From contig SKKN01000021.1 of NCBI GenBank assembly GCA_007121455.1, positions 1-33,721 on the forward strand: 33,721 bases of DNA. The letters are read 5' to 3'. The position numbers and the translations under genes were made by a program. Shown here one piece after another: positions 21,332 through 33,721 of this stretch (position 1 is its first letter; every line of letters starts with the position of its first letter). The stretch comes from Gemmatimonadota bacterium (GTDB taxonomy: Bacteria; Gemmatimonadota; Gemmatimonadetes; Longimicrobiales; Gaopeijiaceae). Under the pieces are notes generated by a model. That model saw only the letters and a list, made by a program, of their open reading frames with translations, had not been told where the DNA came from and made no database searches.

Positions 21332-22087
21332 ATGACTGGGTTCGCCGACAAGACCGCGATCGTGACGGGCGCAGGATCAGGGCTCGGGGAAGCCATCGGC
21401 AAGGCTCTCGCCGCCCGCGGCGCAAACGTCGTTGTGTCCGATATCAACCTCGAATCAGTCGAGCGAGTCGCATCGGAGATCGAGGGGGCGGGCGGGACCG
21501 CGAGCGCGGTGCGCCAGGATACGGCGAAGCCCGAAGACTCCAAGCGCGTGGTGAGACACGCAGTGGACAGGTTCGGAGCGCTCCACTTCGCCGTCAACAA
21601 CGCCGGCATCGGAGGAGCCCAGGCACCCACCGGAGAGATCGATCTCGAGGATTAGCGGCGGGTGATCGACATCAATCTGAATGGCGTGCTCTATGGGATG
21701 CGCTATCAGATCCCGGCGATCCTCGAGACCGGCCCGCTCGAGGGCGCGATTGTCAACATGGCCTCCATCCACGGAACCGTCGCGGCGATCGGCAACGGAG
21801 CGTACACGACTGCGAAACACGGCGTCGTGGGATTGACCAAGAACGCCGCGGCCGAGTACGGGCCGCAGGGCCTGCGAATCAACTGTGTGGGGCCGGCGTA
21901 TATCGACACGCCCTTGTTGTCCGACTTGCCTGACCACGTACGGACGGATCTCGTGTCCCGTCACCCCTTGGGACGACTGGGACGGACCGAGGAAGTGGCG
22001 CCTCTGGTCTGCTTCCTCTTGTCCGACGAAGCGTCGTTCATCACCGGTGGCTATTACCTGGTGGACGGAGGGTACACTGCGGTGTAG
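21332..22087 (+). pseudogene. short-chain dehydrogenase/reductase interrupted by one amber codon
   Basis: A 251-codon SDR (NAD(P)-dependent oxidoreductase) that is complete except for TAG at 21653-21655. ATG 21332 follows GGAGG. The Rossmann motif TGAGSGLG (12-19), NNAG, catalytic Ser145 (MASIHG), Tyr158-x3-Lys162 (YTTAKHG) and the family C-terminus ([13 protein letters not shown]) are all in one frame. The stop falls where SDRs normally have Trp ([15 protein letters not shown]), so a single TGG-to-TAG change explains it. The second part could restart at GTG 21662, but without the Rossmann fold it would not bind cofactor. It could be a recent pseudogene, a sequencing error or a read-through site. 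Confidence 0.9.
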
Positions 22088-22133: not shown

Positions 22134-22166
22134 GGGTCTGGGTAGACTCGAGCTGCCGCCTCACGC
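22134..22166 (-). repeat. tRNA-Ile 3'-half-like fragment, copy B
   Basis: These 33 bp match 31370-31403 at 30 of 34 aligned positions (three substitutions, one gap), in the same orientation. The matching sequence is the variable region, T-arm and acceptor 3' strand of a tRNA-Ile gene read on the minus strand. The T-arm here is degenerate (ggcag against ctacc has one mismatch, loop ctcgagt), and no anticodon or D-arm can be folded around it. It is a relic, not a tRNA. It lies 47 bp after the interrupted SDR gene. Confidence 0.65.
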
Positions 22167-22240
22167 CGGCATCTCGCAGCCCCAGTGGCATAGCCCGCGG
22201 CGAAAGCGAAGGTTAGCGGAAGACGCCGGCTGAGCGGCCG

Positions 22241-22699
22241 TTAGCGGGGCCGGCTGCTCGTGTGGGTGTGACGTACCACCCAGCGGTTGCCACGGCGCTC
22301 GAGAATGGCCGTCCCGCGGCCCACGTGATCGAGCCGGCGATCGCCGTAATCGGCCCGGAGGGTGTAGCGGAAGATCGCCCAGGCGACGTCCCCCACCACT
22401 CGGGGTTCGACCTCGCTGGGCCGATACTCGAAGTTCTCGAACGCCTCGAGCTCCGGTCCCAGGTGGTCGTCGCGGTAGTCCGTCCAGCCGCGGTCGATTC
22501 CCGTCCCTTCGATCACGGTAAGGTCCTCGCCTGCGTACAGGGTATCGAGGGCGATCATGTCTCCGCGCTCCGCGGCTGCGAACAGCGCCTCTATGGTCGC
22601 GCGCACCTGTGCCGTGTCCGACGGCGCTCCGGCCTGTGCCTGGGCGACACCGGGTGTGAGCAGGAGCGGAAGAAGCAGGAATACGTGGCGGAGGCGCAT
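22241..22699 (-). CDS. secreted NTF2/SnoaL-like protein
   Basis: A 152-residue protein from ATG 22699 behind GGAG. The signal peptide ends at GVAQAQA (about 22). The mature domain is an NTF2-like fold of the DUF4440/SnoaL type: VRATIEALFAAAERGDMIALDTLY, then LTVIEGTGIDRGW, VGDVAWAIFRYTLRA and the closing strand pair GTAILERRGNRWVVRHTHTS. Such domains bind small molecules or act as simple cyclases or isomerases, and no substrate can be inferred. It stands alone in the first part of the accessory segment. Confidence 0.82.
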   Translation of the reverse strand: MRLRHVFLLLPLLLTPGVAQAQAGAPSDTAQVRATIEALFAAAERGDMIALDTLYAGEDLTVIEGTGIDRGWTDYRDDHLGPELEAFENFEYRPSEVEPRVVGDVAWAIFRYTLRADYGDRRLDHVGRGTAILERRGNRWVVRHTHTSSRPR

Positions 22700-22837
22700 G
22701 GCTGGGCTCCGGAGCTGGATCGCACGTCGCGATGCGTTGTTGTCGTCGCCATCCACCCAGCCCCTTTTCCGGGGAAGGGGAATGACGGTGATGGATACCG
22801 GGCACTCCTAAAGCTATGCCTCTCCTCCGGGAGAAGC

Positions 22838-23037
22838 TACCTACGGCCTGCGCCCGCGGACCCCGGCCCTGGTGCCGTTCGACTCATCATCAGTGCGTCG
22901 ACGAGTTCCGGCTCATCGGGTTCGGTCTGGAGCTCCCCGAGCGAGAGCCGTCCCGGAGGCCCCTCGAGCCCGACCTCCGTGAACCCCATTCGGAGCGCCC
23001 AGCAGGGTTCTCTCAGAGCGAATTGCCACGGCGGCCG
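22838..23037 (-). pseudogene. possible C-terminal gene fragment of unknown family
   Basis: A minus-strand frame between stops reads about 67 residues including FALREPCWALRMGFTEVG, GRLSLGELQTEPDEPELVDA and ends at a TAG (22838-22840). The composition looks protein-like and the ALRMGFTEVG phrase recalls acetyltransferase-like C-termini, but no start codon with a ribosome-binding site is present and it overlaps the TetR remnant on the other strand. It may be the tail of a lost gene, or chance. Confidence 0.25.
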
Positions 23038-23290
23038 GATTCACTACCGGCGCGATCTACTCCAATTTCGGCGGCAAGGAGGCTCTGTTCATCGCCCTTC
23101 TCGACGCCCACGTGGAGCGACTCCTCGCCGCCGTCGATGAGGTGAGCGGGCGGACCGACCCCCGTGTTCGGCAGCGACAGATGAGGGAACGCGTCGCCGA
23201 ACTGGTCATCAGGATGTCGGGTCCCCAGGAGAGCGAACTCGGCGGAACTGACCTGAGCACGCGTCAGCAGGACCAGGCTCCACTTCCTCC
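22983..23290 (+). pseudogene. TetR-family regulator remnant
   Basis: In one plus-strand frame, open from a TGA at 22980-22982, the sequence reads SERIATAAGFTTGAIYSNFG and GKEALFIALLDAHVERLLAA. This is the recognition half of a TetR DNA-binding domain plus the start of the ligand domain. The first helix and any start codon are missing. The C-terminal ligand domain dissolves after VAELVIRMSG (near 23220) where it meets the 3' end of the membrane-protein gene on the other strand. It is a gene truncated at both ends. Confidence 0.8.
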
Positions 23291-23883
23291 CCGCGGGCTC
23301 CTCCCCTTCCGGCCCCCCCCCGCCCCTCATGAGCACCGCCCGGCCTGAAAATGAGATGGGAGAGCAACAGGTATCCCACAACCGCACCCCCTGCGACCAG
23401 GAGCAGGTAAATCACCATGAGCATCAGGTAGCTCAATCCCATTTCGCCCACCACCGCCAGCACCAGCGCGGCAAGCCAGGAGACGCCGGAGACGGACCCG
23501 GTCAAGGCGAATAGCCACTGCTTCGACGTCAGCATCCGCTCCGGCAGTGTCTCATGGCGGTGTCGCCCCAGCATTGGGATCACCGTTGCATGGAAGACCA
23601 CCCCATTCGCCATCAACACCACCACCGCCGTCATCTTGGCCTGGAAGTGGAGCACCTCCCAGATGGCCACGTTGTGGAGCAACAGAGCAACCCCTGTGAG
23701 GACCAATAGGGCCAGGCCCGCCAGCACCACGTGTGCCGTTGCCCGGATAAGGACATACTGGTCGTCGCTGACCCGTCGATTCCGGATCGCGCTAAGGAAG
23801 ACCGAGTCGCTGGCTGCGGCGGCGCCTACACCTATGGCAGCACCCGACACGTGAAGAACGGTGCGGACGCCGTAGAGGCTCAT
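23209..23883 (-). CDS. uncharacterised integral membrane protein
   Basis: A 224-residue protein with about five membrane helices (near 5-30, 48-70, 80-105, 125-150, 155-178). Conserved-looking His, Lys and Asn occur in or near helices (RTVLHVSGAAIG, LHFQAKMTAVVVLMANGVVFHA). I recall similar small membrane proteins without assigned function. After about residue 182 the sequence becomes a low-complexity Gly/Arg/Glu tail that overlaps the TetR remnant, so the original C-terminus was probably lost in a rearrangement. Its ATG overlaps the TPR gene's stop (ATGA), showing translational coupling. Confidence 0.75.
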   Translation of the reverse strand: MSLYGVRTVLHVSGAAIGVGAAAASDSVFLSAIRNRRVSDDQYVLIRATAHVVLAGLALLVLTGVALLLHNVAIWEVLHFQAKMTAVVVLMANGVVFHATVIPMLGRHRHETLPERMLTSKQWLFALTGSVSGVSWLAALVLAVVGEMGLSYLMLMVIYLLLVAGGAVVGYLLLSHLIFRPGGAHEGRGGAGRGGARGEEVEPGPADACSGQFRRVRSPGDPTS

Positions 23884-25454
23884 GGCATTGTCGCCTCTCG
23901 GTGTTGGTTCACCGCGCTCGAGCGTGCGGCTCTCGCCTGCTCGATCCCCGTCTTGGCGTAGCGGCGATTGGGAGTCCGCTCCAGCGAAGCCTCGTACGCC
24001 GCGATCGCCTGGTCCGTGCGGCCTTCCTGGAGCAGCATGTCGCCATAGAGTTCACGCACAGGAAGGATCTCGCCCGGCGTGATGGGATGCTTCTCCATGG
24101 AATCCTCCAGATCGGCGGCCTCGCTCACGAGCCCGAGCGCCGTATCAGTCTCGCCGCTCTCGTAAAGAATCCAGGCTTCTACGGCCTGGCCGAGCGCCTC
24201 GGTCATGTGCGCCCAGTAGTCGTCGCCTTTCTCCCGCAGGGCGCGAACGGCTGCTTCGATACGCTCGCGCTCGCCCTCCGCCTGCTCGAGGTTCCCGGTG
24301 CGCGCCGCGCCGAGCCCCCGCGCGTAGTGGAAGAGCGCATCACCCGCCGGCATCGTCTCCCAGTCGATCACGTCCGGCGCCCTCGGCTCCAGCCGAGCTG
24401 CCTCCTCCCAGCGCCGCTGCTCGAGGTAGTAGCGGGCCTGCGGTGCCGCCACTCCGTAGGCGACGGTAAGGACCGGCGGCATCCCCTCCTCGAAGTTCTG
24501 GATACGCTCGAGCGTCTCCCGCGCCCTTTCCTCTTGGTCCATCTGCAAGTAGGCGTACATCGCATAGTCCAGAGCATGGACGTAGTGGCCACCCGCGCGG
24601 GGGTCCACGTCGGCCAAGCGCAGCGCCGCCTCGGCGGAGCGCTCGTTGAACTCGGCCGTCTCCTCCCACTGCCCGAGGCGCACGAAGATATGGCTTGCCA
24701 TATGAAGGGCGTGCGGCGTCTCCGGGGCCAACTCGCCATACGCCTCCGCCACCTCCTCTGCCCTGGGTGCGAGCTCCGGGCTGTCGTAGGCGTGCAGGAG
24801 ATAGTGGTGCAGGCCGGGGTGCTCCGGATGTCGGTCCAAGTAGCTCAGCATGAGCGCGCCGGCCTCCCGCTCCAGCGCATAATCATGCTCCTCCTCGGGC
24901 GAGAACTGCGTCTGTGCGTAGGCGACCTGCGCGAGAGCATAGAACGCGGCGGCGTCCACATCCTCGCGGTGCGCCTCATGCAGCTCGCGCTGGGCCTCTT
25001 TCCAGGCTAGCACCCGCGCCTCGTGATCGGCGGGGGGGCTGGGTGCGGCAGGAGCCGGATCGGTGAAAAAGGCTTCCGCAGCAGCGACATGCGCCTGCTC
25101 GCGCTCCGTCGGCGCACCGATCTCCTGGGCAGCCTCCACTGCCGCCGCGCCACGCTCCAAGCCCTCCTCGCTCGTCGGGTGCCAGAGCGGCTGAAAGCTC
25201 GTCATGGCGATCCCCCAGTGCGCCATAGCACACTGCGGGTCCAACCCGGCCGCGGAGTCGAAGTGCTCTTGTGCCTGCGAGTACATCATGTGGTGGAGCT
25301 GCAAAAGGCCCTGCTCGAACTCCCGCTGTGCTTCCTCGTTGCAGGAGATGGGAAAGTCGACTTCTCCCAGCTCCTGCTCCTGGGGCTGAGCCACTACCAG
25401 ACCCGCCGAGAGCAGAAGACCGAAGACTGCGGTGAGAAGTGCTCGAAGTTTCAT
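23880..25454 (-). CDS. secreted TPR-repeat protein
   Basis: A 524-residue protein. ATG 25454 follows GAGGAGG and starts a signal peptide ending near VVAQ (about 24). The rest is a helical TPR array: FEQGLLQLHHMMYSQAQEHF, AQCAMAHWGIAM-like repeats, HYVHALDYAMYAYLQMDQEE and a final AIAAYEASLERTPNRRYAKTG. The HPGLHHYLLHAYD and THALHMASHIF-type His-rich repeats are typical of a TPR subfamily annotated only as hypothetical. It is likely a periplasmic scaffold for protein contacts. It is coupled by overlap to the membrane protein gene downstream, so the two may act together. Confidence 0.85.
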   Translation of the reverse strand: MKLRALLTAVFGLLLSAGLVVAQPQEQELGEVDFPISCNEEAQREFEQGLLQLHHMMYSQAQEHFDSAAGLDPQCAMAHWGIAMTSFQPLWHPTSEEGLERGAAAVEAAQEIGAPTEREQAHVAAAEAFFTDPAPAAPSPPADHEARVLAWKEAQRELHEAHREDVDAAAFYALAQVAYAQTQFSPEEEHDYALEREAGALMLSYLDRHPEHPGLHHYLLHAYDSPELAPRAEEVAEAYGELAPETPHALHMASHIFVRLGQWEETAEFNERSAEAALRLADVDPRAGGHYVHALDYAMYAYLQMDQEERARETLERIQNFEEGMPPVLTVAYGVAAPQARYYLEQRRWEEAARLEPRAPDVIDWETMPAGDALFHYARGLGAARTGNLEQAEGERERIEAAVRALREKGDDYWAHMTEALGQAVEAWILYESGETDTALGLVSEAADLEDSMEKHPITPGEILPVRELYGDMLLQEGRTDQAIAAYEASLERTPNRRYAKTGIEQARAARSSAVNQHREATMP

Positions 25455-25686
25455 GGCAGACCTCCTCTCGCCTCTGGTGCATACTGCGGTCACACGGCTG
25501 CCTGTGCCTCGATAGGCGCCACCGCAACCATGTTGCCATGGAGCCAGAATGTGATAGCGATCCCCAGCCGTGCTGCTCGAGATCAAGATCCAATGCAAGA
25601 TTCATACGTTCGGCCAACCCTTTCCGACCGAGGCATTCCGAGCCGCACAGTCGCGCCTTCTCGAGCCCGCACTCGCCAACCGTCCT

Positions 25687-25959
25687 CTATCCCTCCCCCG
25701 GATATCCCTCCCCCGGAAACTCTTTCCACCACCGGAAGATTTGCTCCCACATGTCCAGGACGTTGGCACGGCCGCTCACCGTGTGGCCCTCGCCCGAATA
25801 GCGGACCAGGCGCGCCCGGTTGCCCCGACGGAGCAGCTCGGTGAAGAACATCTCGGCCTGTTGGATGGGCACGAAGTCCTCATCTCCGTGGATCATGAGA
25901 AGAGGTGTGTCCACATCGGCCACGTAGGTGAGCGGGCTGGCCTTGGCCAGCGCCATGAC
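25687..25959 (-). pseudogene. C-terminal remnant of an S9 prolyl oligopeptidase-family peptidase
   Basis: The frame reads ASPLTYVADVDTPLLMIHG, then GDEDFVPIQQAEMFFTELLR and the catalytic-His region YSGEGHTVSGRANVLDMWEQ. These are the last 80-90 residues of an S9-type acylaminoacyl peptidase, with the triad Asp and His but no nucleophile Ser, no beta-propeller and no start. Upstream of about 25959 the frame loses all resemblance. The C-terminus ends in a short repeated FPGEGYPGEG. It is a decayed gene, most of it deleted. Confidence 0.82.
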
Positions 25960-26185
25960 GGCGATCGGCAGCATCAGCCCCCGTCGATGATCGGCGGGAA
26001 GCCGACGGGGAGCCGTGATGGACAGTTGCGGGGAACCGAGGGCGGCAATGAACCGCTGCACGAGCGGAGGAAGCCTGGCGAGGGCGCATCGACACGCTCG
26101 ATGTGGCGGGTGTGTCGCGTGCCCGCTAATGTTGTCAACGAAAATGTTGGCGCACCGTCCTGTGTCCGCCTGAGGATCTCCTACC

Positions 26186-27070
26186 ATGCAGCAGACCTTC
26201 GATCCCGCCGAGACCCTGCAGTCTCTCTCCGAACTGATGGCCGAGTGGGGAGTCAGTGCCCTCGGAGCCGTGGCGGTCCTTCTCGTCGGGAGCTGGGTCG
26301 CACGCCGGATCAGGGACGGCATGCGGACGGCCCTGGGTCGGGGCAGCCTCGATCCCACGCTGGTGCCATTCGCGACGTCGATCGTCTACTGGGGCCTCAT
26401 GGCGTTCGTAGTGATCGCGGTGCTCGGGATCTTCGGAGTGCCCACCGCTTCATTCATCGCCGTGGTGGGTGCCGCAGGGCTCGCGGTAGGGCTGGCCCTT
26501 CAGGGGACCCTTGCAAACTTCGCATCCGGGGTCATGATCCTGACCTTTCGCCCCTTCGTGATCGGGAACTGGGTGGAGGTCGCGGGCGTGAGCGGCACCG
26601 TGAAGGAGATCGGGATCTTCTCCACGATCCTGTTCTCGGGGGACAACGTGAAGATCGTGGTTCCCAATGCACAGGTGTACGGACAGACGCTCAAGAACTA
26701 CTCCGCGAACGACACCCGCAGAGTGGACCTCGTGATCGGCGTAGGATACGACGATGACCTCCAGGTCGCGCAGGAAGCCATCCTGACGGTCCTCGACGCG
26801 GACGAGCGGATCCTCGCAGATCCGGCGCCCACAGTCGCCGTGCACGAGCTCGGCGACAGCTCGGTCGACTTCGTGGTGCGCCCTTGGTGCCGGGCTTCGG
26901 ACTACTGGCCCCTCCGCTGGCATCTGACCCGGGCCCTCAAAGAAGGCCTGGAAACGGCAGGCTGCTCGATCCCGTTTCCGCAGCGGGACGTGCACCTATT
27001 CGAGCGCGCCGAGACCGAAAACGGCGCAGTATCGGACCGCGGAAAGACTGTCACATCCGGTTCAAAGTGA
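26186..27070 (+). CDS. small mechanosensitive channel, MscS family
   Basis: A 294-residue channel that opens under membrane tension to release solutes during hypo-osmotic shock. Three membrane helices are visible. The third is the pore helix with Gly/Ala packing (AVVGAAGLAVGLALQGTLAN), followed by the beta-domain (FRPFVIGNWVEVAGVSGTVKEI, VVPNAQVYGQTLKNYS) and an alpha/beta C-terminal domain (DFVVRPWCRASDYW). ATG 26186 follows TGAGGA. It is intact and of normal length, in contrast to the decayed genes around it. Confidence 0.94.
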   Translation: MQQTFDPAETLQSLSELMAEWGVSALGAVAVLLVGSWVARRIRDGMRTALGRGSLDPTLVPFATSIVYWGLMAFVVIAVLGIFGVPTASFIAVVGAAGLAVGLALQGTLANFASGVMILTFRPFVIGNWVEVAGVSGTVKEIGIFSTILFSGDNVKIVVPNAQVYGQTLKNYSANDTRRVDLVIGVGYDDDLQVAQEAILTVLDADERILADPAPTVAVHELGDSSVDFVVRPWCRASDYWPLRWHLTRALKEGLETAGCSIPFPQRDVHLFERAETENGAVSDRGKTVTSGSK

Positions 27071-27182
27071 CTGTGCTCCAGGTAGCGGCCTGACGAGGTC
27101 CGGAGCGGCCGTAGGCCACCATCAGAAGTACGAGCGCCCCGAGGCACCGACCAGGAAACCGCCCGGGCATCCGCAAAGCCTT

Positions 27183-28904
27183 TCAGGGGCCATCCGTTGC
27201 CTCTCGTCGCTTTTGGAAGTAGAGCTCGAGGCGCTCGATCTCTTTCGCCGTCCAGCCGGGGGGCGCGACGACTTCCAACCAGGCGTCGATGTAGTGCTCA
27301 GGAGCGTAGACGTGCCCATAGCCCGTCGGCGCGGCGTCGCCCGCTGCGATGTCCACCGCCAACTGGAGCATACTGACGACGGGGTACCAACGAAGCTCGG
27401 GAGAGACGTCGGGTCCGCGCGGGTCGGCCATCCACTCGGGGCGCCTGAACAGGGCCCGCTGCTCGAAGAAGGTCACCGGGTCGCTCGCGTACTGCAGATA
27501 GACGATCCGTATGGGTCCCCATTCGGCTCCCGGCCGCTCCGGGGTGTTCTGCTGGTTCATGAACCGGACGATGGAGCCGTCGCGAAAGCGAGGAAGCCAT
27601 GCGGGAGAGTCGGGTTCTCGCTCCGCGGTGATCGTGCGCCAGGTGTTGCTCCGAAAAGGAGGCCCCGCCCAGAGCGCCCCTGCATAGGGATCCGCGATAA
27701 CATCGTAGAGGTCGGCCGCCCTTTCGCCGTTGAGAGCTCCGAGACTCAGGCCATATAGGTAGAGGTCGGGCCGGGCGTCCCGGGGAAGCTCCGTCCAATA
27801 TCCGTAGATCTCGGCGAACACGGTCCTCGCCGTCTCGGCCCCGTACTCGGGCTCCGCGAGGAGGGAGAGCCAGCTGGGCAGGTAGGAGTACTGAACTGCG
27901 ACCGTCGCCACGTCCCCTCGAAGCAAGTATTCGAAGGTGTCAGTGGCGTACGGGTCCACCCAACCCGTGCCGGTGGGTGTGGCGATGACCAGGACGGAGC
28001 GCTCGAAGGCTCCCAGACGTTGGAGCTCTCCCAAGGCCAGACCGGCGCGTTCTTCGATCGTCTCGGCCGAATTGATACCTACATAGACCCGGATGGGCTC
28101 CCGAATGGGTTCCGCGTCGCCCTCCCCGAAGAAGACCGCCAGATCTTCCGCGGTGGGGCCGGACGAGACGAACTCGCGTCCCCTTCGGCCGAGGTCGTGC
28201 CAGGCGACGAGCGAAGCGGCGCTTCCCGTGAGAAGCGGGTCTGTGGGCTCCTCCAGTTCCGGCTGCACGAGCGCATCGACCTGCTGGAAGGAGGCGTCCA
28301 AGGCGCGGAAGGAGGCCTCCACGAGGACGCCGTCGATCACCAGCCAGAAGACGGCGATCGCAAGGAAGCCTCCGGTGACGTTGGCGATCCTTCGGGGGAC
28401 GTGCCCGCTCAGCCACCCCGCGATGATCCGGAAGGTCAGGCCGAAGAGGCGGGCGATCTTGAGCAGGACGATGGCCACAAGAGCGGCGATGAGCCCCACG
28501 CGGATGGGTTGGGCGCTGTCCACCGATTCCAGCTCCATGAGGAGCCGGATCGAGTTCTGCCACTCGGCGGCCTGGTGGAGGAAGATCAGGGCGGTCGCGA
28601 GGGAGAGACCCGCCGCCGTCAGCGTCGTGATTCTCTGGGCTCGCGCCCCCGGGAGCGGCAACTCGAGGTAGCCCCAGAGCCAGCGACCGAACACACCGAG
28701 GCCATAGCCGGCAGCGAGCGAGAAGCCCGAAAGTACGCCCTGCGTGATGAGCGTGCGTGGGAGCAGGCTCGGCGTGAGCGACGCCGCGAAGAAGAGGGTC
28801 GCCACGAGCAGGCCCGGCGTGGACAAGGTCGCCGCGAACCGTGCGCTCCAGCGCGTCAGCGCGGATCCCACCAACGTCGAGCGACGCTGAGCACCCCGAA
28901 TCAT
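27183..28904 (-). CDS. membrane-anchored alpha/beta hydrolase (Abhydrolase_9, DUF2319)
   Basis: A 573-residue protein. The N-terminal half (about 25-200) has four or five membrane helices (Abhydrolase_9_N type). The C-terminal half is the catalytic Abhydrolase_9 domain with nucleophile Ser387 in GLSLG (LYLYGLSLGALNGE), a likely Asp in YASDPVTFF and His in GYGHVYAPEHY. Members are thought to act on lipids or esters at the membrane; the substrate is unknown. ATG 28904 has GGATAT upstream at 10 nt. It is convergent with the MscS gene and preceded by 620 bp without a gene. Confidence 0.88.
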   Translation of the reverse strand: MIRGAQRRSTLVGSALTRWSARFAATLSTPGLLVATLFFAASLTPSLLPRTLITQGVLSGFSLAAGYGLGVFGRWLWGYLELPLPGARAQRITTLTAAGLSLATALIFLHQAAEWQNSIRLLMELESVDSAQPIRVGLIAALVAIVLLKIARLFGLTFRIIAGWLSGHVPRRIANVTGGFLAIAVFWLVIDGVLVEASFRALDASFQQVDALVQPELEEPTDPLLTGSAASLVAWHDLGRRGREFVSSGPTAEDLAVFFGEGDAEPIREPIRVYVGINSAETIEERAGLALGELQRLGAFERSVLVIATPTGTGWVDPYATDTFEYLLRGDVATVAVQYSYLPSWLSLLAEPEYGAETARTVFAEIYGYWTELPRDARPDLYLYGLSLGALNGERAADLYDVIADPYAGALWAGPPFRSNTWRTITAEREPDSPAWLPRFRDGSIVRFMNQQNTPERPGAEWGPIRIVYLQYASDPVTFFEQRALFRRPEWMADPRGPDVSPELRWYPVVSMLQLAVDIAAGDAAPTGYGHVYAPEHYIDAWLEVVAPPGWTAKEIERLELYFQKRREATDGP

Positions 28905-29524
28905 GGAATGATATCCATTTGAGCGGAGCAGGCGCCTCTCCGTTCCATGCGTTCAAGTCCTCCGGTTCGCCAGCCGGAGCCAATCCCCCCGACAGCCGTT
29001 CGCACCAACCCAGAGGGGCGAGGAACCGCGGACGGATGCCCCCGGAGTGGGGCGCCCACCGGAGAGGAACGAGTCGGTCGGACGCGGGCGAGACAAGAGT
29101 CGAAATCGATGACTTTCCACGAAACGTTATCGCGATTCCTCCCGGAAAGCGAGACGGCTCAAGACGCCAAGCCACCCGGGCTCCGTCCCGGTCGACCTTC
29201 ATCTCGGATTCCGAGACGAAGGTCGAAGCCGATTCCGCCAGAGGCTTCGATGTCATGATTTCAATCGGCCTCGTGCCGGTGTTGCGGCGGGGCGCGTCCT
29301 TCTGTGGAGCTCTGTAGCGGCCCGGGCGCGGGGACGATCAGCTACGGGCGGATGTTCTGAGCGAGCTCGACTTCGAACGCCGCAGTGCGGGCGGGTCGAC
29401 CCCCGGAGGTATCCTCGACCCCCGCACCGAACGCCTCAGCCTTCATGCGGACCTGGAGCGCGGTCGGGTTGCCGGGGGCATCAAGGGCGCAGCGGCCCAG
29501 CCCGATCTGTCCGAGGGACCTCCG
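28905..29524. other. 620-bp gene-free stretch with two overlapping hairpins and a BON-like scrap
   Basis: No complete gene is supported here. Two inverted repeats stand out: 29192-29226 (tcgaccttc/gaaggtcga with an inner ctcgg/ccgag) and 29223-29250 (tcgaagcc/ggcttcga). They share four bases, so RNA could form only one at a time. At 29334-29380 the plus strand reads DDQLRADVLSELDFE, resembling the start of a BON-domain protein. The rest resembles intergenic or decayed sequence. Confidence 0.5.
29192..29250. promoter_or_regulatory. pair of mutually exclusive hairpins
   Basis: Hairpin 1 is 29192-29226: a 9-bp arm, a 2-nt internal loop, a 5-bp arm and a 3-nt loop. Hairpin 2 is 29223-29250: a perfect 8-bp stem with a 12-nt loop. 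The shared bases tcga (29223-29226) make them alternatives. On the minus strand they lie about 290-345 bp upstream of the Abhydrolase_9 start and downstream of cheB. They could be an attenuator or a processed leader; no T-run or start codon overlap makes this certain. Confidence 0.35.
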
Positions 29525-30529
29525 TTACCGTTCGACCTCCGCTTCGTCAAAGACCGCTTCCGTGCCGGACTTCAGCATGGCGCGGATGCGCTGGATGTGA
29601 ATGCCGAATTCCTCGGCTCGCTCACTCAGAGACCTGGTCTGGCTGCCGGTCATCGTGTCAGCCATCCGGACGAGCAGGTTCTTGCGCTCTTCGAACATTC
29701 GCAGCGCGGACCAGAGGGTCTCTTCAATCTTCGCGGTCTGTGCCACGAGGAGGACACCGGCGGTGAAGGCGTGCCCGGTGTGGCATCGATAACGGAGAGA
29801 TTCCACATTCTCGACTTCCCACAGGACGCCGCCGCAATCGGGACAGTTGAAAGGAACCTGATGTCCGAGAGTGTGGACAGAAGAGAGGTCGCTGAGAACG
29901 CGCCGGGCGATCCTGGCCTCGATGATGACATCATCGGGGATTGCCGGTTGTCTGCCAGGCTTTCGGCGCACAAGCTCGGTGAGCAGCGCGCCGAGCTGTG
30001 CGAGCGGCACGCAATGGTCGACTTCGGTCGCCTGCAGGGCGTTGCTCGGCATATCCGGATAGGCAGCATCGCTGGGATCCTGCACGACGCAGATTCCGCC
30101 GCATCGATGAATTGCGTTGAGGCCGGCGGTTCCATCATCGAGATGGCCCGTCAGAACCACCCCCGTCACCCGGTTGCCGTGCGCGACCGCGGCCGAGCGA
30201 AATAATGGATCGATGCTCGGGCGGGATCGGTTCTCCCGAGCACCTTTGGTGATCTGAATGGTCTCTTCATCGATCATCAGGTGGTGGTCGGCGGGGGCCA
30301 GGTAGATACGGCCCGGACGAAACTTCTGCCCATCGTCGGGTTCTGTGCACTCGAGCGGGCCATGGCGATTCAAGACGCGAAGGAGCGACTTTCCCGTGGT
30401 GTCGGCTGCCACGTGGTTGACGACGAAGACGGGCGCGGGAAAGTCCTCCGAAAACTGAGAGACCAGTCGCGTGAGTGCGTCCATACCGCCGGCTGAGGTT
30501 CCGATGACGACGATTGCGGTCTGCTTCAT
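29525..30529 (-). CDS. CheB-type methylesterase domain protein without receiver domain
   Basis: A 334-residue protein. Residues 1-185 form a CheB methylesterase domain with the Ser-His-Asp triad Ser12 (GTSAGGMDAL), His39 (VVNHVAAD) and Asp131/132 (TGHLDDGTAG). Classical CheB removes methyl groups from chemoreceptors and has an N-terminal receiver; none is present, so it is not phosphorylation-gated in the usual way. Residues about 226-334 hold a zinc-ribbon-like Cys/His set (C229-x2-C232...C249-H250-x2-H253) and a helical tail. No cheR, receptor or other chemotaxis gene is nearby. ATG 30529 has GAGGGA upstream. Confidence 0.9.
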   Translation of the reverse strand: MKQTAIVVIGTSAGGMDALTRLVSQFSEDFPAPVFVVNHVAADTTGKSLLRVLNRHGPLECTEPDDGQKFRPGRIYLAPADHHLMIDEETIQITKGARENRSRPSIDPLFRSAAVAHGNRVTGVVLTGHLDDGTAGLNAIHRCGGICVVQDPSDAAYPDMPSNALQATEVDHCVPLAQLGALLTELVRRKPGRQPAIPDDVIIEARIARRVLSDLSSVHTLGHQVPFNCPDCGGVLWEVENVESLRYRCHTGHAFTAGVLLVAQTAKIEETLWSALRMFEERKNLLVRMADTMTGSQTRSLSERAEEFGIHIQRIRAMLKSGTEAVFDEAEVER

Positions 30530-30545
30530 GATGATCTGATCCCTC

Positions 30546-30564
30546 GCACGTGAGCCACACGTGC
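30546..30564. promoter_or_regulatory. inverted repeat just upstream of the CheB-type gene
   Basis: A perfect 7-bp inverted repeat (gcacgtg-agcca-cacgtgc) lies 17 bp upstream of the start codon at 30529, in the 5' leader or promoter. The spacing and symmetry suit a dimeric DNA-binding protein or a small hairpin near the ribosome-binding site. No regulator gene is adjacent. Confidence 0.4.
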
Positions 30565-30829
30565 AGTCATGTCCGATACGGCGTGGGGACGCGGTCGTCA
30601 TCCGCCCTCTCTCCGTGAGATTGCAACCCCCGCGATCCCGAGAAGCTTGAACCTCGACGCGGCCGCGGAGGTTCTGCTCATCTTGAGCCGATGCAGGAGA
30701 CGGACCAGCGGTGGAGAAGGCGCCCGTGTCGTCGCCCGCGGGAGGGGCGCCTGCCGGCCGGGGCCTTGGTGACAAGGCGCACGGGTCGGCCCCCGTTGCC
30801 GTCGCGAACCGCCTTCCCAACTTCGACGA

Positions 30830-30889
30830 ATGGGAAATCGCTTTGCCGACTGGCTCAGACAGGCGGAGGCCGACCTGCGCGCGCGAGTG
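30830..30889 (+). pseudogene. N-terminal scrap of a HEPN-domain protein
   Basis: Starting at an ATG, the frame reads MGNRFADWLRQAEADLRAR, which matches the first helix of HEPN-domain proteins of MNT/HEPN toxin-antitoxin pairs. After about 20 residues the match stops and the frame ends at a TGA soon after. In another frame downstream the sequence reads PAAIDLAVMTEDGLEDLREP, loosely like a nucleotidyltransferase partner. It is too short to function, and the assignment rests on one helix. Confidence 0.45.
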
Positions 30890-31089
30890 TGTCCCCCGAC
30901 TATCTGCCTGACCGATTTCCGGCGGCCATCGATCTTGCGGTGATGACGGAGGACGGGCTCGAAGACCTCCGTGAGCCGCTCCAGGCTGGTACCGGGCGAT
31001 CAGCGCGGGGCGGATGCTCTGGGCTGGCTCGACTTCGAGCGGAGCATGAATCCCGCTCTTCACCTGTTCGCGTCCCCGGACGCCAGCCC

Positions 31090-31284
31090 GACCGAAAACT
31101 CCGCTGCAGCGCGTGCGGAAGCCGAGGTGAGCCGGAAGGGAGGGCGGCAGCTGTGGCCATCGACATGTCTTACGTCTACATCCGTACCGTACGGGACCAC
31201 CTCCCGCAGGCGTCCCTGGTATTCGACCGCTTTCATGTCGTGAAGTCGATGAACGCCAAGCTTTCGGATCTGCCAAAGCCCCGC
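31090..31284 (+). mobile_element. ISL3-family transposase remnant
   Basis: One plus-strand frame reads VAIDMSYVYIRTVRDHLPQA and SLVFDRFHVVKSMNAKLSDL, the conserved block of ISL3 transposases that includes the first two catalytic acidic residues (IDMS and FDRFHV). A preceding RKLRCSACG may be part of the zinc-binding N-terminus. The rest of the transposase, the catalytic Glu and the terminal repeats are absent. It is a dead fragment next to the tRNA-Ile relic. Confidence 0.75.
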
Positions 31285-31312
31285 AGGCCCCGAAGGGCCT
31301 TCCCGGGCGCAC

Positions 31313-31360
31313 AAAAAAAGCCAGGCCGTCCGCTGGAACACCGCGAACGGTCTGGCTTTT
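31313..31360 (-). terminator. bidirectional Rho-independent terminator after the tRNA-Ile relic
   Basis: A stem of 14 bp (31316-31329 with 31347-31360, one G-T pair) carries seven Ts on the minus strand (the A-run 31313-31319) and four Ts on the plus strand (31357-31360). On the minus strand it follows directly after the 3' end of the tRNA-Ile fragment, as expected for the native tRNA terminator. It suggests the tRNA 3' end and its downstream DNA are the original chromosomal side. Confidence 0.85.
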
Positions 31361-31368
31361 CAGGAAAA

Positions 31369-31413
31369 TGGGCCTGGGTAGACTCGAACTACCGACCTCA
31401 CGCTTATCAGGCG
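31369..31413 (-). pseudogene. tRNA-Ile(GAT) 3' half, copy A (possible attachment-site scar)
   Basis: Read on the minus strand this is a tRNA-Ile from the anticodon loop onward: CTGATAA (anticodon GAT), 3' anticodon strand GCGTG, variable GAGGTC, T-stem GGTAG, loop TTCGAGT, CTACC, acceptor CAGGCCC and discriminator A at 31369. No CCA is encoded. The 5' half (D-arm, first acceptor strand) is absent; homology stops within the anticodon stem at about 31413. Breaks inside the anticodon region of a tRNA 3' half are typical of integration sites. A terminator follows. Confidence 0.88.
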
Positions 31414-31654: not shown

Positions 31655-32410
31655 TCAGCCAGGACTCTGCTCAGCGCCCACGCGCACCACGAGATCCTCA
31701 TCCAAGCCCTGTCGATGAATCTCCAGTCCTGGTCGGGATCCCATTTGTCTCGTCGTAACATCAAGGGCGAAGGGAAACAGCGCGGGGTCGTTCCGGAGGG
31801 CGTCCAACGGCCGAGGAGATCCCCCGAAGTCTGCGAGCGCCGCCTCCAGAAGCCACGCGCCTGTCGGATCTGCACTCCTGAGCCGAAGCTTGGCGGCTTG
31901 TGCGAAAACGCCGCGGTCGTCCTCCTCCGTCAGCACCCCCCAGAGGATCAGCGACCGGACCACTCGTTGTACCGCCCGGGCCACCGTGCTTCGCTCCCCC
32001 CACACCTGTGTGACTCGGCGAGTGATCTGGGAAAGGGAGGCCGTCCCCTGAACTGCGGCGAGCCGCCCCGCAGCGGAGGCCACACTCCGGAAGAACGGGT
32101 ACGTGGCCATGCACATGCCCCAGTGGAGCGGAAGGCGGTCGCGGCTCCCCCGGTCGTTGAGCAGGGCAAGCCCCTCGTCTCGGAGCGTCCCGAGACCGCC
32201 GGGCACCTGGACCCACACATGGACGAGGACGGTGACGGTATTCGCCCTGGCCTTCACCCCCGCCACGCTACCGTCGAGTAGATCGTACAGCCTGGATCGG
32301 ATCTCGCCTGCGGGACACCCCGCTGCCGTCCAGGCTGCTGTGGCGTCCAGCCACTCGAGGCGGATCTTCCGATCAAAGCCTACGATCCGGTCCTGGCTGC
32401 CTTGGCTCAT
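31655..32410 (-). CDS. unknown BREX-linked protein with a winged-helix-like segment
   Basis: A 251-residue protein whose ATG (32410) overlaps the pglZ stop as ATGA, so it is translated with PglZ. I do not recognise its family firmly. The central part (about 95-165: LPLHWGMCMATYPFFRSVA, RLAAVQGTASLSQITRRV, STVARAVQRVVRSLILWGVL) reads as a winged-helix or small DNA-binding fold. In type 3 BREX loci the gene after pglZ is brxA, so position makes a BrxA role possible, but I cannot see clear DUF1819 similarity. It ends the operon; about 240 bp separate it from the tRNA-Ile relic. Confidence 0.65.
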   Translation of the reverse strand: MSQGSQDRIVGFDRKIRLEWLDATAAWTAAGCPAGEIRSRLYDLLDGSVAGVKARANTVTVLVHVWVQVPGGLGTLRDEGLALLNDRGSRDRLPLHWGMCMATYPFFRSVASAAGRLAAVQGTASLSQITRRVTQVWGERSTVARAVQRVVRSLILWGVLTEEDDRGVFAQAAKLRLRSADPTGAWLLEAALADFGGSPRPLDALRNDPALFPFALDVTTRQMGSRPGLEIHRQGLDEDLVVRVGAEQSPG

Positions 32411-33721
32411 CGGGCCTCGATCTGGATGAACGGGACGATGATCTCCTCCAGGGAAGCGCCTCCGTGGGCCACCACGGTGTCCCCCGGGGGGACGAACGCA
32501 GTCCGTCCGGGAGCGAGAAGGGGAAAGTATTCCTCCGGCAGGCCCGTCGGGGACCAGGCGACGGACCCGGGAAAGTCCTTCTCCACCCGGCTCCGGAGGG
32601 CCGGATCCGGGAAGACCCGCGCCCGTTGGCCCCGGACATCGGCCACGGCGCCCTCTGAGGGGCGACCACATCCGCGGGCCTCCACGTTCCCGTGGTCCGA
32701 GGTGAGGAAGACCGTGAAATCCTTCCGGAGGAGAAGGGTGAGGAGGCCGGCCAGGAACCCTTCATGGACCCACTGGCGCACCTGGTTGTGCATTCCGGCG
32801 GTCCCGAGCGTCATTCCGTGCATGATCCGGTCGACCTGATCGACCACGAGACCCACGACCCGGACCCTGGCCCGATCGACGAGATCCTCCACTCGCTCAA
32901 GGTCCTCGGATGTACGAATCGCCCGCTCGTAGCCGACTTGCTCCCCGGCAACCCCCTCGCTCTCCCAGAACCGCTTCCACAGGGCCTCCTCACGAGAAGT
33001 GCTGCGGATGCTCTGCGGGAAATAGTAGGGCGGGTTCCCCGCGAAGCAGGCCTGCCGAGATACCGGGGTCAATGTGGGAAGCCACGCGAAGACGGCGTCC
33101 TCGTGGATGTCGGCGCCAAGACCGTGCTCATCGAGCGCATCTCGCACGACGATCCACTGGTCCAGGGAGAGACCGTCCAGCACGACGAGGGCGACCCTCC
33201 GCTCACCCTCGGCTGCCCTTCGGGCCATGTGGCGAGGGACATGATGAACCATGACCGGGGGGATGGGCGGCTGGTTGTGAAGGGTCGCGAAGCGCGCGGC
33301 CAACCAACGGTGGAAGGCCTCATCGATCTCGATCTGCAACTTCTTCACACGAGCAAGGTCCTCGTCGTCGAGGTTCGCTCCTCCCTGGCCGTGTTGGAGA
33401 GCCCCGAGCCGTGCCCACCGGAAGGCGAAGGCCGACCAGGCAGCGTGGCCAGCGTTGTCTTCCGGCACGCTCGAAACCACGGTGTCAAGGAGACCATCCC
33501 AGCGCATTCGGGCATCTCGCTCCGGTTCGAGGAGAAGTCCCACGGCAGCCCAGCTCTCCTCTAACCTCGCGCCGTTGGGATGGGAGACGGGTGTCAGGAT
33601 CCCTTCATGGAAAAGGTTGTCCACGTAGACGCGGACATCGTGGTGATCGAAGGGGAGTTCCTCGGGCCCCCGCAGCTCGAGGCCGTACGTCGGCTCCGGT
33701 TCGTGGCCGGCCCCACCCTCG
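32407..33721 (-). CDS. pglZ: BREX system phosphatase PglZ, 5' end beyond the window
   Basis: Part of PglZ, the alkaline-phosphatase-superfamily protein of BREX phage defence. The core motifs are intact: metal-binding VALVVLDGLSLDQW, VVDQVDRIMHG, TSDHGN and the C-terminal HGGASLEEIIVPF typical of BREX PglZ. At least 437 residues are visible. A GTG at 33624 could be read as a start, but the frame stays open to the window edge with coding-like sequence (YGLELRGPEELPFDHHDV), so the gene continues to the right. Gene order and the motif set best fit a type 3 locus (inference). BrxC, methylase and helicase genes would lie outside the window. Confidence 0.88.
   Translation of the reverse strand, partial: EGGAGHEPEPTYGLELRGPEELPFDHHDVRVYVDNLFHEGILTPVSHPNGARLEESWAAVGLLLEPERDARMRWDGLLDTVVSSVPEDNAGHAAWSAFAFRWARLGALQHGQGGANLDDEDLARVKKLQIEIDEAFHRWLAARFATLHNQPPIPPVMVHHVPRHMARRAAEGERRVALVVLDGLSLDQWIVVRDALDEHGLGADIHEDAVFAWLPTLTPVSRQACFAGNPPYYFPQSIRSTSREEALWKRFWESEGVAGEQVGYERAIRTSEDLERVEDLVDRARVRVVGLVVDQVDRIMHGMTLGTAGMHNQVRQWVHEGFLAGLLTLLLRKDFTVFLTSDHGNVEARGCGRPSEGAVADVRGQRARVFPDPALRSRVEKDFPGSVAWSPTGLPEEYFPLLAPGRTAFVPPGDTVVAHGGASLEEIIVPFIQIEAR

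Follow-up and report, generated by a model that had tools for sequence, protein, structure and literature searches.

Introduction

The locus described here has its closest precedents in two places, the ssrA islands that stand in tandem in Dehalococcoides and the tRNA islands collected in Islander. Islander holds 2083 islands with anticodon-centred sites, and crossover centred on the anticodon defines a known class of tRNA island (PMC4383910). The Dehalococcoides ssrA islands contain over a dozen 3′ repeats and include members without an integration module, an arrangement that has been explained by accretion (PMC3146451). The kind of insertion is already known, both from tRNA islands and from accretion, and the stretch of DNA analysed in this study would be a further case of it.

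The likeness to each of these systems is partial. As in the Islander islands, displaced 3′ fragments that start at the anticodon loop lie in the same orientation as one another and the tRNA would be restored by element-borne sequence; the differences are that no integrase lies inside, that the intact tRNA is off the contig, and that there are two displaced fragments instead of one. The Dehalococcoides islands share the numerous direct repeats derived from the 3′ end of a single RNA gene, the tandem arrangement, and members lacking an integration module, which are regarded as cis-mobilizable elements (PMC3146451), but their target is ssrA and their enzyme a serine recombinase, whereas the target here is tRNA-Ile(GAT) and tyrosine recombinases lie beside it in relatives. 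CIMEs and accretion arrays likewise have att-like sites at both ends and no integrase of their own; the segment here would be a candidate CIME with partly decayed sites, which a neighbouring element may have moved. The tycheposons of marine picocyanobacteria, as they are described in citing papers such as PMC10872708, also appear as cargo bounded by tRNA remnants in tRNA-associated islands, although they belong to another phylum and the likeness is one of description. A literature search of limited extent found no paper on a tRNA-Ile fragment array in Gemmatimonadota.

The window, that is the whole stretch of DNA analysed, is one entire contig of 33,721 bases (C21) in an 80-contig, 3.53-Mb assembly (genome G000). 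The closest named relatives of this genome are Gemmatimonadetes MAGs of the 'CSSed' series, which we take to be of soda-lake sediment origin from their name and from papers on Siberian soda lakes.

Results

Two displaced tRNA-Ile 3′ fragments in one orientation

The argument starts from three features, all on the minus strand:

31369..31413, minus strand: fragment B, a tRNA-Ile(GAT) 3′ half and att-type remnant covering tRNA positions 30-74 (45/45 against the intact tRNA-Ile on contig C48 of the same genome)
31312..31361, minus strand: terminator of the Rho-independent type directly after fragment B (hairpin of -30.9 kcal/mol, then a T run)
22134..22166, minus strand: fragment A, a decayed tRNA-Ile 3′ end covering tRNA positions 40-73 (30/34, one gap)

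The preliminary description had reported two tRNA-Ile 3′ fragments in the same orientation and had proposed aligning both with the tRNA-Ile of the same genome. That alignment bears out their identity: B is identical to positions 30-74 and A matches positions 40-73 at 30/34. The two fragments lie 9.2 kb apart and both reach the tRNA 3′ end in one orientation, as is characteristic of the displaced fragments of tRNA-targeted islands. The concern that the copy at 22134 might be no better than chance is answered by its score of 41.0 bits, which is above all 200 reversed or shuffled decoy queries (best 33.7 bits over 841 kb) and corresponds to an E of ~1e-4 across the whole genome. Only 1.2% of random 60-mers are as stable as the terminator of fragment B, and the sequence of that terminator differs from that of the intact tRNA-Ile; after fragment A no terminator is left.

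Neither ARAGORN nor Rfam finds a complete tRNA in the window. The single intact tRNA-Ile(GAT) of the genome (C48:111927-112000) stands at the end of contig C48, which overlaps contig C15 and not the window contig. The overlap between the end of C48 and the start of C15 (reversed) is exactly 121 bp long and starts exactly at tRNA-Ile position 30. A de Bruijn break of this kind usually means that the same 3′ half and terminator are present elsewhere in the sample with other upstream sequence. The overlap suggests an assembly-graph branch at the attachment site and would fit an occupied form of the tRNA-Ile site in the population. Contig C15 was considered as an integrase-bearing island and rejected, as no integrase was found among the C15 proteins checked and its content is chromosomal-looking.

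tRNA-Ile fragments, arrays and integrases in relatives

The two fragments belong to a pattern that extends across the family. About 18 tRNA-Ile 3′ fragments pass E 1e-9 among 39 relatives, whereas of two control tRNAs tRNA-Lys yields no fragment and tRNA-Ala a single one. In 36/42 boundaries examined the tRNA sequence starts within positions 27-33, where the anticodon loop (positions 33-39) begins, and two fragments in relatives start at position 40 or 41, like fragment A. Most of the fragments are followed directly by a terminator-like hairpin that is more stable than 90-99% of random 60-mers. On 14 contigs at least two tRNA-Ile copies are present, and neighbouring pairs have the same orientation in every case (16/16). 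Several phage contigs in IMG/VR, used for the crossover position only, have the same 3′-half identity from position 33 followed by a hairpin-like stretch, and one of the IMG/VR contigs has an ORF with a tyrosine-recombinase-like motif 101 bp from the tRNA-Ile 3′ half.

Three relatives have the textbook arrangement of intact tRNA-Ile, intervening DNA and displaced 3′ fragment, with same-orientation fragments 17.0 kb downstream of the tRNA in G122, 4.1 and 9.4 kb downstream in G129, and 8.7 kb downstream in G134. The G122 segment contains a Dsr1-like match and an HNH/helicase gene, while the content of the G129 and G134 segments is ordinary metabolic genes and peptidases, with no integrase among the genes checked; in both respects they resemble A-B. 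G006 (loci L080-L085) has about 10 tRNA-Ile 3′ halves. Some of them form pairs in one orientation, at distances of 1.6, 2.3, 2.3, and 9.2 kb, and within pairs the core is surrounded by repeats of 128-319 bp. Between or beside these fragments are AbiEi/AbiEii, Fic, HigA-like, and AAA ATPase genes, among others. A view of the segments bounded by fragments as defence cassettes alone was rejected, as their cargo is mixed.

The DNA that follows the fragment in G064 is collinear with a stretch of G070 located about 4 kb downstream of the tRNA-Ile gene there. This is a direct sign that G064 and G070 differ in what separates tRNA-Ile from this backbone, a contrast comparable to the one sought for the A-B interval. 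G035 has a fragment on the upstream side of its intact tRNA-Ile.

Tyrosine recombinases flank the tRNA-Ile gene in some genera; integrases near fragments were sought by sequence comparison. In G011 (C13:23351-25858) a tyrosine recombinase (Pfam Phage_integrase) ends 57 bp before tRNA-Ile and a second integrase, 74% identical to the first, ends 84 bp after it. More generally, paralogous tyrosine integrases converge on tRNA-Ile from both sides in genera g12/g37, 57 bp before and 65-84 bp after (loci with integrases flanking tRNA-Ile: L092, L261, L265, L266, L267; at other tRNAs: L268, L269, L272), and homologues of these enzymes are found next to tRNA-Val and tRNA-Pro. Members of this integrase family occur in 57/121 family genomes, and many genomes of two genera have at least 15 copies each. 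In the G000 bin no member was found at E 1e-10. That genome has three Phage_integrase genes in all, and none of the matches is on the window contig, so that the earlier remark that no integrase remains holds; the integrase expected inside a tRNA-targeted island is missing from the contig.

With intact tRNA-Ile genes and displaced fragments in relatives, and integrases near tRNA-Ile in some genera, tRNA-Ile is an insertion hotspot with stacked islands in this family. The proposal that the two fragments of the window are attachment-site scars of tRNA-targeted integration is likewise strongly supported by the family-wide pattern, namely the shared start at the anticodon loop, the terminators, the constant orientation, the displaced fragments, and the integrases adjacent to tRNA-Ile.

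Some further observations concern individual fragments. At three loci (L087, L255, L256) the 25 bases before the fragment, of the GCGCCCACGAGCGCT..GCTGATAT type, recur in more than one genus, as would be expected of a single element family whose end is conserved. At L118 (151-2712, genome G003) a tRNA-Ile 3′ fragment is preceded, at a distance of about 150 bp, by a DUF3987/Toprim primase-like gene. Such genes are typical of integrative elements.

A BREX type 3 system beside fragment B

Two genes to the right of fragment B were absent from the first account of this DNA:

31655..32413, minus strand: brxA of a BREX system (PADLOC BrxA 209.9 bits)
32407..33721, minus strand (listed ORF 32407-33624): pglZ of BREX type 3, cut by the right contig end (NCBIfam NF033449 474.9 bits, cut-off 250; PADLOC PglZ 530 bits; Pfam PglZ)

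They start 240 bp right of the fragment, and pglZ matches the NF033449 profile from position 243 on. A type 3 pglZ together with brxA identifies BREX type 3, and the likeness lies in pglZ, recognised by the BREX-3 model, being followed by brxA; the difference is that only the end of the operon is on the window contig, which stops inside pglZ. Since the genes just right of B are these, fragment B most likely closes a BREX-3 defence island that comes in from the right side. The clearest island end in the window is B, and its cargo lies on the right side and not on the side of A.

The interval between the fragments

The genes between A and B, with the one immediately left of A, are as follows:

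21332..22087, plus strand: SDR gene adjoining fragment A on its left and interrupted by an in-frame stop (adh_short / adh_short_C2 matches in both halves)
22241..22756, minus strand: SnoaL-like gene, open (PF13474)
22983..23348, plus strand: TetR regulator remnant (PF00440 positions 20-47 only)
23209..23883, minus strand: small predicted membrane protein, open (no Pfam match)
23880..25598, minus strand: TPR-repeat protein, open (PF13181; best match 73% in G030, of another family)
25687..26385, minus strand: S9 peptidase remnant, C-terminal part only (PF00326 positions 131-208 of 213)
26186..27070, plus strand: MscS-type channel, open (PF00924, PF21082; 75-77% copies in three family relatives)
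27183..28904, minus strand: Abhydrolase_9 membrane hydrolase, open (PF10081, PF15420; 70% copies in three family relatives)
29525..30532, minus strand: CheB methylesterase-like gene, open (PF01339; 72% copy in G016)
30900..31312, plus strand: ISL3 transposase remnant adjoining fragment B (match about 31.15-31.28 kb; PF01610 positions 56-98 of 240 only)

The interval had been characterised as rich in broken genes, in distinction to what precedes it. The truncated TetR, S9 peptidase, and ISL3 genes are indeed present, but in the frames tested Pfam did not recover the BON-like and HEPN-like remnants that had been listed with them, and at least six interior genes look intact. Nor is breakage confined to the interval, as the SDR gene left of A is split as well. 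With open genes inside it and a split gene outside it, the A-B interval is only partly decayed, and decay is also found elsewhere. Base composition was considered as a sign of foreign origin and set aside, since the interval (65.5% GC) does not differ from the left block (66.0%); the DNA right of B has 66.6%.

That the interval is one integrated segment is plausible. It has att-type repeats at both ends and neither an integrase nor transfer genes of its own, as a CIME does, but neither end has an intact tRNA. No relative was found in which the interval is absent or the same flanks are joined, none has the same gene order, and the empty site with one intact tRNA-Ile that comparison with related genomes had been expected to reveal was not found, as no relative is syntenic. 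Attempts to connect the left block with the backbone DNA that follows tRNA-Ile in relatives, where it has no homologues, and to place the interior genes in synteny with the flanks, were equally without result. With ordinary composition and no empty site found, the arrival of A-B as one piece is something we infer; most likely it is an older insertion layer without its own integrase.

Three interior genes (MscS, Abhydrolase_9, and CheB) have 70-77% copies in family relatives, about the level of the genes upstream of tRNA-Ile, and the relatives' copies of interior genes are in different neighbourhoods and not adjacent to each other. Judging from copies at this level of identity, each at a different place, the interior genes may be family genes that were carried along in a mobile segment, or they may have been resident here all along.

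Discussion

Probable history of the locus

We think it probable that the window is part of an accretion zone at tRNA-Ile(GAT), in which B is the outer scar of the BREX-3 island, A is an older scar, and the DNA between them is an earlier layer. By this mechanism a tyrosine integrase would recombine at the anticodon loop of tRNA-Ile, each incoming element would bring a copy of the tRNA 3′ half with its terminator and so restore the tRNA, and the previous 3′ half would be pushed outward at each insertion. Fragment B would then be the outer (attR-type) scar of the BREX-3 island, which extends into the window from the right end of the contig. Fragment A, lying further out, would be a scar of greater age that has since decayed. 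The 9.2 kb separating the two would be what is left of a layer accreted earlier, which has been broken in part and into which an ISL3 element has inserted. The order of events, the integrase that acted here, and the intact tRNA beyond the right contig end are what we infer from this arrangement. Stacking is the simplest history and predicts that the outer fragment is the older; in agreement with this layering, A (30/34, no terminator) is more decayed than B (identical, terminator intact). Several observations speak against this history: no member of the integrase family was found in the genome bin, no relative was found to lack the interval or to have its flanks joined, the GC content of A-B equals that of the left block, MscS and Abhydrolase_9 have family copies as similar as those of genes upstream of tRNA-Ile, the intact tRNA-Ile is on another contig, and fragments in other genomes lie far from the tRNA (G071) or upstream of it (G035).

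It is unlikely, though it deserves serious consideration, that B ends the BREX-3 island while everything leftward of B is resident chromosome, so that A is an unrelated older scar and A-B was never one mobile segment. The family copies of MscS, Abhydrolase_9, and CheB, the uniform composition, and the six or more open interior genes are all consistent with residence; pairs of tRNA-Ile 3′ ends in the same orientation, however, are expected from stacking and are repeatedly seen in relatives, and resident genes sit ill with copies that in relatives occupy different neighbourhoods and are not side by side.

A later rearrangement may instead have moved the fragments here, or integration may have used a secondary site elsewhere than at the tRNA gene. 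In the complete genome G071 a tRNA-Ile 3′ half and the integrase next to it are separated by 1.28 Mb from the intact tRNA-Ile and are on the other strand, which makes relocation of fragments a real alternative, as such fragments can be relocated, and the fragments of G017 and G011 are internal to long contigs that lack the tRNA. For the window we nevertheless regard this as improbable: the assembly places the contig neither way, but ordinary stacking is favoured by the defence cargo beside B and by the shared orientation of the pair. In G071 (C1, about 3,682,610-3,691,410) the integrase-bearing fragment is also 8.7 kb from a tRNA-Arg-looking gene, beside which there is a remnant of the same integrase family.

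That A is a chance match, with B as the sole real scar and no bounded interval, is very improbable indeed, for although A matches at only 30/34, starts after the anticodon loop at position 40, and is without a terminator, its score stands well above the decoy maximum at an E of ~1e-4 genome-wide, it ends at position 73 on the same contig and in the same orientation as B, and two fragments in relatives also start at position 40 or 41.

Significance of the tRNA-Ile site

A wider proposal can be put forward tentatively, and we hold it as a possibility rather than an expectation. In this Gemmatimonadota family tRNA-Ile may serve as a shared docking site for defence and metabolic segments without integrases, with integrases from other loci of the cell stacking, exchanging, and relocating them, that is a passenger-cassette system in which the mobile boundary is the 3′ half plus terminator. 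The many integrase-less bounded segments make passenger islands mobilised in trans or in cis testable in complete genomes of the family. The window also places a BREX-3 system at a tRNA-Ile site, and the tRNA-Ile 3′ half from the anticodon loop with its terminator offers an easy single marker for mobile and defence islands in an almost uncultured phylum. A protein-level marker of tRNA scars could exist as well: the small spurious ORFs at L081 and L083 encode 'DSNHRPHAYQ' / 'WTRTTDLTLVRHA' peptides, which are antisense readings of the tRNA 3′ half.
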